A stretch of 64,000 nt of DNA. Origin: Homarus americanus. Lineage: Eukaryota > Arthropoda > Malacostraca > Decapoda > Nephropidae. Below are positions 18,391-42,400 of the stretch, piece by piece. How positions within the stretch are numbered: position 1 is the first letter of the stretch; the number at the start of each line of letters is the position of its first letter. The notes under the pieces are model-generated. The model was not told where the DNA came from. It saw only the letters and a list, made by a program, of their open reading frames with translations, and made no database searches. The stretch spans positions 1,980,940 through 2,044,939 of the forward strand of contig NW_024720711.1 in the NCBI RefSeq assembly GCF_018991925.1. Direction: 5' to 3'. Position numbers and translations under genes: made by a program.

Positions 18391-18494
18391 TTAATAGTTG
18401 TCATCATATTCTTCGTCTTCTGGTGGAGACTGCTCGACCTCATGGTAGTCCAATTCCAGGGCCGCTAGATCCTCCCGTGCTTCTGCAAACTCTC
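18391..18494 (-). CDS. Alpha-tubulin terminal exon C (tail ends DDNY)
   Basis: The acceptor TTCTCTAG precedes GA, which completes the Gly codon begun in exon 9, followed by Glu-Phe. It encodes [20 protein letters not shown], then a [11 protein letters not shown] end and TAA at 18391-18393. Thirty-three residues after Gly420. It ends in Tyr, so it fits the detyrosination cycle, and has dense acidic residues for polyglutamylation. It is closest to tail A in its first 20 residues. It lies 22.6 kb from exon 9. An AATAAA follows 73 nt downstream. Confidence 0.88.
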
Positions 18495-21400
18495 CTAGAG
18501 AAGGTAAATTTAATCAGAGGCATATAACAAGTGAGAGACATTTCCTTACAAAATGTTCGAATTAAAGGAAACAAGAAAAACAACACAGTGGTCATAGGAA
18601 GTGGTACAAGAACACAAATGGGAGTTGAAAGTTAGTATAAGTATACTATCTTAAGTCTTAAAAAAAAACATACAAAGCCACCCAGTTAGTTTTCCAGAGT
18701 ACTGTACAAGACTACATGCCCACAGAGAAAATGAATCAGAAAATGAAACATACATTGGTTACAAAAAAGAACTGAACAAACACAGGTGACCATTTAAAAT
18801 AAATAGTTAAGACCTCAGCAGTGCTAGTTGCCATGGGGTCACAATACCAGCATAAATATATGAAATTATACCAATGACCATTAGATATCTTCCACTTTTA
18901 ACATTAAAGTTACTTGTTGATGTACGGTATACATTCTCTCCCTCTGCATAATCTTATATACTGTATGGTAAAACAGGGAAGAATTTTGTCAAGGATAGAT
19001 CTACTAATGGTAGAGGTACAGTACATGATTCTTCCTTCCTACATCAACACATTAAGTAGGATAATGGAAGTAAAATATAAACTTGTTTGCTTTTAAAGTC
19101 GATTTATAGCACTGAAACAAACAACACAAGGTGTTCCAAGAATTAGTTTAGCCTGTAGCTTCCTATAGCCAAGTTATACAATTGGGTTGGATGTAAGAAG
19201 ATGAGGAAGAGGATAAACTGACTTTAGGAACACCTTTCATGACCTTATATTCTCAAAGTCCAAGAAGAGTAAAAAAAAATGTAGTTTCCCTGTAAGCATT
19301 CAGTCATACGAGTATATTTGTGATTATGACACTCAAGAAGTTAAACTCCCTACATCAAGACTGAAGTGATATGCACACACATAGAACCTAAATTATGTCT
19401 AAATCATTTTGAACTACTGTATAAATCTCATATTTTTATTAACATACCAGTATGTGATTTTTAGCTTATCAAAAATACAAAAGTAACCAAGTAACAGTCT
19501 TTTGGGGCTTATTTCTTTATTCCCATAGCAAATCCAAGTGGTTATTCATATACAGTACATAATAGTAGGGCAGGGAGGCTGCAGATTGGATGTACAAGTA
19601 CAGTATTGTCCATCTCTTACAGAAAGTAAAGGGATCAGGAAATTCATATTCCATTTTACAGGAACTGAGGGATGAGAGTGTTGTACAGTATACAATATAT
19701 GGCATATCCACCTGTACACGTAGGGTGAAGACAGTTAATAGATATATCTTCCTATCTACAAGAAGTAGGAAAACATTTGTTATATTTTCTGATTCTCTAC
19801 AGGGAATGCAGGGATATGTACCATATTATCCCTACCTACAGAGCTCACTTAATCATCTGTAGAGACATGCTAAATACTGCCCCCCCTCCCCCCCTACTAT
19901 TACAGTAAGTAGGAAGGATTCATCCAGTGCCTCTCCTCCCCAGAATATTATGTATAAAATAGTACAAACACATCAGCATTTATTTAATTACTACCTCTAA
20001 CAGCAATACAAAGCTGTCAACATACAACCAACTGTTGAAGGAGGACCAAGGTCTTGCTTGTTTTATGCTTTGGTGATACATAAGCTTGACTCCAGATGTT
20101 GCTGAACAAGTCAATACCCCTGTACCTAGTTGGCTATGTTGCCAACTTATGCCATTAACACTGCATTTTCAACTGACACAACTGAAACATTGCAATACTG
20201 TATTTTTCTTTTTTAGAAAATTTTAGTTTTGGTAGTTAGGATGGTAAGGATCACCTGGTAGTTCAGACTCCCTCTTGCCTACAACCAACTTGTTATGAGA
20301 CATGAGAAAACCAGTGATGATAATTTACTAAAAAATGTTAATATACAATTAAACTTATGTTGATCAATAACCCCAAAATAATGTTTTTCCAAATACTGTA
20401 CTGCACAGTCCAACCCCCCAATTCGATTTCTAATAGTTTGGAAAAAGCAAGATAGAGAATTTAACAAATTAAAACAAATTTCTATTAAGATGGCTATGAA
20501 AAATCATGACCTATAGACACACATATGGATATTAATACCACCATAAGTGTTGAAAAACCATTTTACTTTTATCACATTGAACTCTACTGCACTGAAGGAC
20601 CTCTGAAAGCATCTAAGGAAAGCATCCTAAATAATACAGTACAGTACATATTTTTTCAAACATTTAGACAATTTCTAACACTGACAAACTACTTAGGTAA
20701 TGTTGACATTCTTTGTGAGTTATTTGTGAATAAATGCTGTCGGGAAGTGTATTACTAGATGTCTATTGCCTTATAAGTGTTATTTCACTCTAACACTTGT
20801 ACTGTACCTGGTGGACTTAAATACTACAGTGAATAAAACATACACTAAACCCCCGATACAGTATAACGGACACTATCTATAGCGGACCTCGACTTTAACG
20901 GACACTTTGATTCATTCGGACTAGGTTCATATACCGTATTGAGGACTCAGGTTTGTTAAAGTAAAAAATAACGGACTCGGGTCCATTATGGTAAAAAAAT
21001 TACGGACTCGTGTCCATTTGTATCCAATTTCTCACAAATAATTACAGTAATACCCCCATTTAACCCAACCTGCATAGTGCTGATTCATTGTAGAGCTCTT
21101 TGGTCCTCTCCTGGAGTTATTTTTTTACAAGAAAAAAATTAATTATGAAAATCCATAATACAAGGCAGAAGTTACAAGACTAGCCAACAACGGCCATGTT
21201 TCTTTACAGTCTATCCGCCAAAGAGAGCAACATACCCATGTATGCTCGCAGCCAATCAGCGCTCTCGTGTAAAATTATTCCCGGTAGCATTCAACTTACT
21301 TGTCATGCTCGCTTTTTATATGAGTGATTTCAGTATATTATAGTGAATATTTGTGATCCTGGTAGTGCAGTGGTCATTGTTTATCTCACCCCTCTTCCCC

Positions 21401-39400: not shown

Positions 39401-42400
39401 AAACGGCTAACAAACAAATCAGCAGTGAAGAGGATGAAGTATAAAGTATTACTAGTGAACCTGTGGACATGGCTGAGAATGAGGTTAAGTTAAAGCATAG
39501 CATTACCAGTGGACTTGTGGACTTGGCTGAGAACAAGGCTAATGTACAATCCTACAGTGGGGGAAGTAAGAAATAATCTCAAATCACCATTGAATCATAC
39601 TTCTATTAAGCATGAGAGGAGGGAGCAGAGGGAAGATGATGCAGATCAGTGGAGGTAGTCTACTAGAACCTCATCATCATCATCTATTTCAGCTGCGCTC
39701 GACTCCACCTCATGGTAGTCCATTTCTAAGGCAGCAGTGTCCTCTCTGGCCTCGGTAAACTCTCCTATGGGGCCACGGAATAACACAAGGGGGACATGGG
39801 AATGGCAGAGGAGAGAGGTTAAGGAGAGAGACGTTTTTATGAGGACAAACATAATTCAGGGGGGGACAAGGGAGAATGACAGGAACCAGAAACATTTAAA
39901 CCAAGGAAGAAGATACAGGTGTGTGTGGAGGAATGTTGAGAGTGAGAAGGAAAGTCACAGAGGTAGAGGATTCAGGAAGTGAAGAATTCTTTATTAGATA
40001 ACTTGATAATCATATCCAGACATGCATCATGCAATTAAAAAGTATCACTTGTGCATTTTTTCATCTAAACTGTGAACATTATGGCCGCAAACATCTAATG
40101 CACTATCAGTAAGATTATTGAAATAGAAAATCACCACAATGTTCAGTAAAATTTAAAAAACATAGCATAATGGCAGTCATCAACAAGTTTAAGAGAAAAA
40201 ATTGGGATTACATGAAGTCTAGATATACGAGCTCTTTCTACCTGAAGATTAACCACCCCAATGCTACCTGGGGGTTAGGTTGGGTTATTGATAGGGTGGT
40301 TAATGTTCAAGTAAAATAAGTCAAATCTTCAGTTAATCCAAACAATGTACAGTACAGTACAGTAACTCAAGGAGATGTATTTTGGGTCAATGCCTCATGC
40401 AAAGTGACTTCACAGACTCAATTAACCTCATCAAGTTTATGGCTAGTATGAGGTAGACATGTGTCAGCTCCACACTTTTTACCTAGTGGGTTAATTTATG
40501 AGTTATCGAGACTAAGGTAAGTTAGCTATGAACAACTGGAGCCAAATTTTCCTTCGGTTGAAATATCTGACATTTAGGAGGTGTTTTTACCATTCAAATA
40601 TTTATGAATGCAAAAATGTTTGTATTACTATTTGCTCCTTCCGATTACTTTACTTATGTACAGCTGTATTGATGACTGATTAACTGTCTTTTGAAGTTTT
40701 ATTTGTGAAACATGGTCTTAAACATGACTCCCTATAGTGTACAGTATTCCAGCCTAATGTTAGAAGATAGCTATTGTATCTATTTTATATATAATCTGCT
40801 GGTCTCATAACATCTGACACTTCCTCTCCATTCTACTATACAAATATAATCAAATTCCACTTCGTCCTTGAGCTTCAGCCACACCACTTAACTTCCAAGT
40901 GTGTCATCACCAGCCTCATCCAAGTCATGTTTAAGATTTGTCAACCATCTATCACCCTCAGGCATTGTTGCTTCAAAATGCAAGATGTAAATACTGTAGT
41001 AATAATTATTTGCATGTGTTGCCTTCACCAAAAATCATCCAAAAGTTAAGTTATCATGACTTACCTTCTTCCATGCCTTCTCCAACGTACCAGTGTACAA
41101 AGGCTCTTTTGGAGAACATCAAATCAAACTTGCGGTCGAGGCGCTCCCAGGCGTCCTTAATTGCAGTTGTGTTTGAGAGAGCACAAACAGCTCTCTCTAC
41201 TTTAGCCAAGTCAGTACCAGGTACCACAGTTGGTGGCTGGTAGTTGATGCCCACCTAGAATATATACAGTATACCATATATAAATACAGTACAAAAATTG
41301 TGATAACCACAAGAAAACACAAAGTCCCACAAGACCAGAACATAAACCTTCTCTGGCTTATTTAGTGCCTCCTCCTCCTTCCTCCACCCCGCTCAGCCCT
41401 CAACAGATATTTTGTGTTCTGTACTATCCTAAAATTTAAAGAAAGAATTAAATATTCTTTCTCTAACAATAATTACAAATTCTAGAATGTGTTGATACTG
41501 TTCAGTTACTGTACCTTGAAGCCTGTTGGACACCAATCGACAAAAGTAATATTTTTCTTGGTGCGTGTCTCGGCAATGGCAGCGCTGACATCCTTAGGAA
41601 CAACATCCCCACGGAAGAGGAGACAACATGCCATATATTTACCATTCCTGGGATCACACTTGACCTGGTGAGAGACATGAACAAAGGATCATACAACACA
41701 CACAGAAGATGCTACTTTATTGGCACTAAGTATCTGATGGCCTTGTCAGCCATTTTTGGTTGAAATGCCTTCTTATTTACCATTGTTTGTATACCTGCAC
41801 TGTCTTGGTATATTGTTAGTAAATTTGCACTGTCTAGGTACACTGTTTGTATACTGTACTGCACTATCTAGGTACATTGTTTGTATACCTGCACTGTCTA
41901 GGTATATTGTTTGTATACCTGCACTGTCCTAGGTACATTGTATACCTGCACTGTCTAGGTATTCTTTGTATAACTGCATTGTCTAGAGTACACATTGTTA
42001 GTATACCTCTTTGCACTGTCTAGGCACATTGTTTGTAAACCTGCACTGTCTAGGTACATTGACAGCATACCTGCACACTCTTTGTATACCTACATTGTTT
42101 AATACCTGCACTGTCTTGGTACACTTTGTATACCTGCACTGTCTAGGTACACTTTTTATACCTGCACTGTATCAATATATTGTTAGTATACCTGCACTGT
42201 CTAGGTATATTGTTTGTACACTCTTTGTATACCTGCACTGTCTGGGTACACTTTTGTATACCTGCACTGTCTGGGTATATTGTTTGTATACCTGCACTGT
42301 CTGGGTATATTTTGTATACCTGCACTGTTCAGGCATATTTTGTATACCTGCACTGTATCTAGGTAATACCTTTGTATACCTGCACTTTCTTTGTATCTAC

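Follow-up and report, generated by a model that had tools for sequence, protein, structure and literature searches.

An alpha-tubulin gene of the lobster Homarus americanus carries three intact, homologous last exons behind a single core, and likely encodes three proteins that would differ only in their last 34–39 residues. The gene lies in a 64-kb stretch of DNA (the window; contig NW_024720711.1, positions 1,980,940 to 2,044,939 of assembly GCF_018991925.1), to whose own numbering all positions below refer. The core, read directly, comprises eight coding exons on the minus strand, from 63684 to 41065, and the three tail exons, A, B, and C, follow on the same strand. A choice of tail by splicing had been proposed from the letters alone (the sequence-only reading). 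Our analysis supports this proposal, most firmly for tails A and C and less so for tail B.

The last core exon (41065–41254) ends in phase 1 at AAG/GTAAGT. This donor, GGCATGGAAGAAG/GTAAGT at 41065, leaves over a single base of a Gly codon and fits all three tails. Tail exon A (39646–39764, minus strand, 119 nt including the stop), tail exon B (27396–27499, minus strand, 104 nt including the stop), and tail exon C (18391–18494, minus strand, 104 nt including the stop) are located 1.3, 13.6, and 22.6 kb from the donor, respectively. Their acceptors, ATAG/GAGAGTTT at 39764, ACAG/GAGAGTTT at 27499, and CTAG/GAGAGTTT at 18494, each complete the sequence GGA-GAG-TTT. All three tails open with Gly-Glu-Phe, in frame with the donor, and each ends in its own stop. 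Counted from this Gly, tail A has 39 residues and ends in VDYLH, and tails B and C have 34 residues each and end in IDEY and DDNY. The C-terminal residue is thus Tyr in tails B and C only and His in tail A, and the number of acidic residues after residue 20 of the exon product is 8, 6, and 7 in A, B, and C. Direct reading confirms what the sequence-only reading had described: three same-strand exons with an acceptor AG, each completing the Gly codon and continuing with Glu-Phe, all of them open, B and C of equal length, and the tails homologous before they differ in acidic content and last residue.

The pyrimidine content of the tail acceptors (0.67–0.73) is inside the range of the eight core acceptors (0.53–0.87). 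Several terminal exons, each with an acceptor in the right phase and a stop of its own, are the mark of alternative last exons, and this arrangement is present here. Alignment to solved alpha-tubulins places the start of the tails at Gly416-Glu417-Phe418. With the limits that we assume for helix H12 of alpha-tubulin, the swapped exon is predicted to rewrite the end of this helix, beyond the disordered acidic tail alone.

The eight core exons have AG acceptors, GT donors, and consistent phase throughout. They were located by tblastn, with a sequence of Drosophila alpha-tubulin 84B as the query, and by direct reading. Core exon 2 (63450–63684, AG acceptor, GTGAGT donor) opens directly with Arg-Glu-Cys (RECIS), which puts the start codon in an exon past the window edge; no stretch coding for MVSGG is found in the window on either strand. 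Exons 3 (55157–55261), 4 (52715–52911), 5 (52076–52257), 6 (50538–50634), 7 (49465–49563), and 8 (41515–41664) follow on the minus strand. Exon 4 holds the GTP-binding motif GGGTGSG. Eight coding exons plus a start-codon exon off the edge fit the numbering of the sequence-only reading, in which the last core exon is exon 9. Joined to tail C, the core matches both tubulin Pfam domains (PF00091, E 2.1e-59; PF03953, E 6.9e-48), and its top three PDB matches are alpha chains. The gene is therefore an alpha-tubulin with both GTPase and C-terminal tubulin domains.

Among the matches listed (best 120 of 7964), the one with the highest identity, and the best of normal length, is P0024, annotated as Homarus americanus 'tubulin alpha-1C chain-like isoform X1'. 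P0024 consists of MVSGG, the window core, and tail A, with all 457 shared residues identical. Core exon 6 contains a 33-residue block identical to Drosophila 84B and invariant in the 13 crustacean rows of our alignment, which include three isoforms of one prawn gene. The remaining core matches have 57–84% identity to the query.

The sequence-only reading had proposed looking for the same exon set in related decapods, and the prawn Macrobrachium nipponense shows a comparable set of tails. Its annotated isoforms X2, X3, and X4 (P0083, P0085, and P0086) share an identical 416-residue core and bear three different tails. Each is listed with one contig of 71,649,916 bases, and the three very probably come from the same contig. 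X2 ends in DYDY and resembles tail C. X4 ends in YFD and, like tail A, lacks a terminal Tyr and has Thr at residue 10. X3 ends in EYEY; its match with tail B is based on Ser4 and a polar residue 11, and otherwise on elimination. This set of pairs is the best of the six possible (304, the next being 292), and when the columns of the first 24 residues were shuffled, 237 of 20000 runs attained its score. Tail C has a clear counterpart in the prawn, and tail A a likely, moderately supported one in X4; tail B matches X3 weakly, in a pairing that rests mainly on being left over.

The nearest neighbors of tail C are tails from Procambarus, M. rosenbergii (P0105), M. nipponense X2, and Eriocheir (0.65–0.70). 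In the nearest-neighbor lists, C-like tails recur in Procambarus, Eriocheir, Armadillidium, and another M. rosenbergii protein, and X3-like tails in M. rosenbergii X2 and Penaeus. A C-terminal Tyr is found in 8 of the 13 crustacean rows. Of the cluster representatives listed, M. nipponense alone shows two or more tails on a single core; each of the others shows one. The database holds representatives of 90% clusters, and further isoforms of Homarus, Procambarus, Eriocheir, and Penaeus may be hidden in their clusters (4, 14, 17, and 9 members, respectively). Another protein, P0116, has 458 residues in one unbroken frame on a contig of 1386 bases, which is therefore probably a transcript. Its tail has EDTAALE-DY in common with tail A, and the last residue is Met.

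The tails stand out from the rest of the window. With the Drosophila query, tblastn finds tail B at E 8e-6, tail C at 4e-5, and tail A at 2e-4, and all further matches outside the core have E of at least 0.77. The shared exon start, AGGAGARTTY, occurs at three sites in 64 kb, counting both strands, and these coincide exactly with the three tails (chance mean 0.65). Three sites are reached by 5 of 100 shuffles and the motif alone is weak evidence, so the weight rests on the homologous open frames. A homologous open tail is present at 3/3 sites, and a chance motif was rejected for this reason. Searches of the window with the tails as queries gave other matches that are weak (E 0.03–0.45). As candidates for a fourth tail, four of these (E 0.03–0.26) were read out, and none is a tail. 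Two of the four, both weak matches to the tail B query, at 24701–24760 (beyond the core) and 48547–48624 (in a core intron), are copies of another repeat with a shared minus-strand reading, NCxLLEQxARExCDxTExELFQDQ.

We compared the divergence of the tails with neutral expectation. Residue changes between tails are below those of neutral simulations in 12/12 ordered comparisons (P 0 to 0.0068, 5000 runs each; simulations start from one tail, with kappa 2 and no indels, and the comparison is ungapped beyond residue 20). Since a pairwise simulation does not show on which member of the pair the constraint acts, a branch test was added. It gives P 0.0005 or 0.078, depending on the background, for tail A, and 0.019 or 0.026, on two changes only, for tail C. 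Tails A and C thus look constrained on their own branches. Tail B may be fast-evolving, specialized, or decaying. The constraint expected from the sequence-only reading is seen between tails in every pairwise comparison and is weak on the branch of tail B (P about 0.04). NG86 estimates of nonsynonymous (dN) and synonymous (dS) divergence over 34 codons are dN 0.31 and dS 3.23 for A and C, and dN 0.48 and dS 1.43 for B and C; dS is not estimable for A and B or for any 20-codon comparison.

Several observations weigh against three working tails with one counterpart each in the prawn. Tail A is the only tail in a lobster gene model, itself a prediction. With the pairing to the prawn tails left free, the observed score is attained in 1396 of 20000 shuffles, and C with X2 is the only mutual best pair. 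In raw scores, tail A prefers X3 (104) over X2 (102) and X4 (101), and X3 scores 104 with both A and C and only 80 with B. The nearest tail to B is that of the canonical Drosophila 84B (0.52), with X3 outside the top four, and a search with the tail B region gave six candidates and no relative at E 0.001. Average-linkage clustering joins tail A with X4 at four and five groups and not at three, and leaves C-like and X3-like tails unseparated at three to five groups. Downstream of tail A there is no close AATAAA, the nearest being 1450 nt past its stop, and such a signal is close behind tail C only.

The behavior of tail B suggests an alternative in which A and C are the only working tails and B is a former tail exon decaying in the lobster line. 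Its own branch is little constrained, with a borderline P of 0.036 or 0.044 and seven residue changes, and its 13 changed sites fall 4, 5, and 4 over the codon positions. Moreover, tail B has Gln and Leu at positions that are R430 and A435 (P0024 numbering) in tails A and C and in 13/13 crustacean rows, and its weak pairing with X3 points the same way. However, tail B is still in frame, with its acceptor and stop intact; it is exactly as long as C (104 nt), and its end is acidic and closes with EY. All comparisons that involve it are below the neutral simulations, although constraint on the partner tail could by itself account for part of this effect, and a third, Tyr-ended tail is present on the prawn core. 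We consider the loss of tail B unlikely.

The positions of tails B and C, 13.6 and 22.6 kb past the last core exon, could also indicate that they belong to other downstream genes or are remnants of a tubulin gene duplicate that has lost its core. Against this, neither tblastn nor the tail-query searches find a second tubulin core or any other tubulin exon in the window on either strand, and a separate downstream gene was rejected as a candidate on these grounds; the possibility left by the sequence-only reading, that the tails are parts of other genes, is without support. Of the 14 open reading frames with 110 codons or more that lie between or past the tails, the 5 tested have no Pfam match, and the prawn has three tails on one identical core. 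An origin of this kind is very improbable. Even less credible is that the spare tails were placed by assembly error or recent local copying. The region is repeat-rich, and otherwise nothing was found in favor of such an event; the window contains no N, and the tails differ pairwise at 15–26 of their first 60 bases. The flanks of the tail exons are mutually unrelated (23–43% identity), and the first 59 exon bases are 56–75% identical. Alike exons in unrelated flanks indicate that the duplications are old, which excluded recent duplication as a candidate, and the retention of frame and amino-acid sequence points to constraint, least so on tail B. Three homologous last exons on one core thus remain our preferred reading.

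The core belongs to a distinct group of tubulins. In a midpoint-rooted tree of 21 of the 126 listed proteins and one added sequence, 10 named malacostracan cores and P0116 (11/22 rows) are on one side of a 100/100 branch and 11 other alpha-tubulins are on the opposite side. P0010 was dropped since its core could not be cut out, and the tree leaves 13/19 inner branches unresolved. The lobster core falls among the decapod and isopod rows, separate from canonical alpha-1. A profile search (best 120 of 7954) gave no new malacostracan row of the group relative to the best 120 of 7964.

The luminal loop of lysine 40 (K40), the site of acetylation in other alpha-tubulins, lies in exon 2 (63450–63684) and is rewritten as a 19-residue stretch without lysine. 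No Lys is present between LEHG and the DDS stretch in the lobster gene or in 13/13 crustacean rows. The N-terminus is likewise distinctive. P0024 starts with MVSGGREC, as predicted in a gene model, the lobster start exon being outside the window. According to the gene-model predictions, an MREC start is present in 0/11 crustacean rows with an N-terminus; in place of MREC, 7/11 have MVSGG and the remainder other short extensions. In M. nipponense, X2 starts with MRRSN and X3 and X4 with MVSGG on the same core, which makes alternative first exons likely. A nascent MREC or MREI start is recognized by TTC5 as the cue to degrade tubulin mRNA (PMC12868001). A gene without this start is predicted to escape or alter TTC5 autoregulation.

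We propose that the donor at 41065 would join any one of the three acceptors. Splicing to A could be followed by cleavage there, or A could be skipped and transcription would continue to B or C. In each case the transcript would end at a poly(A) site belonging to the tail exon itself. Candidate signals, by consensus match only, are AATAAA at 18313–18318 (minus strand), 72 nt past the stop of tail C; TATAAA, ATTAAA, and AATAAA at 286, 474, and 485 nt past that of tail B; and AGTAAA and ATTAAA at 513 and 1082 nt past that of tail A, upstream of its distant AATAAA. The chosen exon would replace the protein from Gly416-Glu417 onward, a region that covers the last part of helix H12 together with the acidic tail. 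If tails B and C are used in the lobster, they would yield tubulin open to detyrosination and re-tyrosination, and tail A, with its His end, would not. The tails also differ in how many acidic residues they have and how these are spaced, which may provide different glutamylation sites. The products would then share one lattice-forming core and differ in whether the tail can be detyrosinated; the tail may be chosen by tissue and may affect enzymes and motors.

A wider interpretation, tentative and somewhat short of probable, is that malacostracans set part of their tubulin code by splicing. An ancient core without K40 and MREC would be combined with alternative first exons and three last exons, and the mRNA would determine tyrosination, glutamylation, and the motor-facing end of H12 in each cell type. 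This tail set would be older than the lobster–prawn split, perhaps older than the decapod–isopod split.

The remainder of the window is marked by repeats. Some 56 copies of a 30-base unit (CATTGTTTGTATACCTGCACTGTCTAGGTA) form a minisatellite at 41781–43474, which ends about 120 bases upstream of core exon 8. Core exons 5 and 6 are separated by an intron with two more minisatellite arrays (50699–51398 and 51672–52038), which come within 40–65 bases of the exons. A perfect (TA)n tract of about 101 units is found at 9353–9555. The 16-base unit GTTCGTTATAGCATTC is present in 1.9 copies at both 7147–7177 and 29801–29831, which probably belong to a single interspersed repeat. Two adjoining open stretches on the minus strand (30757–31728; 111 and 211 residues) lie between tails A and B and have no Pfam match. 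An Rfam scan at gathering scores gave no match.

The tails of the prawn and tail A of the lobster are already public as NCBI isoform predictions, and we found no paper remarking on them. The matches listed in the open-licence literature include no report of alternative tubulin tail exons. The alpha-tubulins of the lobster, the same species, were reportedly described by Demers et al. in 1996 (cited in PMC12840830). The literature mentions 'three major alpha tubulins' of lobster (PMC2880298) and a case of delta-tubulin splicing in which no tail is involved (PMC5547134), and in a survey of insect tubulins, tail identity set by splicing is described as not known. If our reading is correct, tail identity can be set in this way. 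Tail effects are hard to separate from core effects because the natural tails known so far are carried by the products of different genes; an animal with three tails on the very same core would make the effect of the tail on motors, microtubule-associated proteins, and modifying enzymes directly testable, in a tubulin line free of K40 and MREC where tail choice may be the main handle.

The animal alpha-tubulin isotypes offer a similar choice of tails with and without a terminal Tyr and with differing modification. Drosophila 84B and 84D end in Tyr and are glutamylated, and 67C ends in Phe and is not, the proteins being products of separate genes (PMC10335831). Alpha-4 also lacks the terminal Tyr and is high in neurons (PMC10499314), so that a terminal Tyr is usual, not defining, for alpha-tubulin. 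In these isotypes the tail comes with a different core and gene, whereas in the lobster one core is predicted to receive a tail chosen by splicing. The enzymes that process tails (vasohibins, TMCP carboxypeptidases, TTL, and TTLLs) likewise govern the last residue and the glutamate load of the alpha-tail, but they act post-translationally and in part reversibly, whereas the ending of the lobster protein would be fixed in the mRNA. In its layout, the gene resembles alternative last exons in general, where splicing is coupled to poly(A) site choice: a donor fits several terminal exons, each with an acceptor and a stop of its own.

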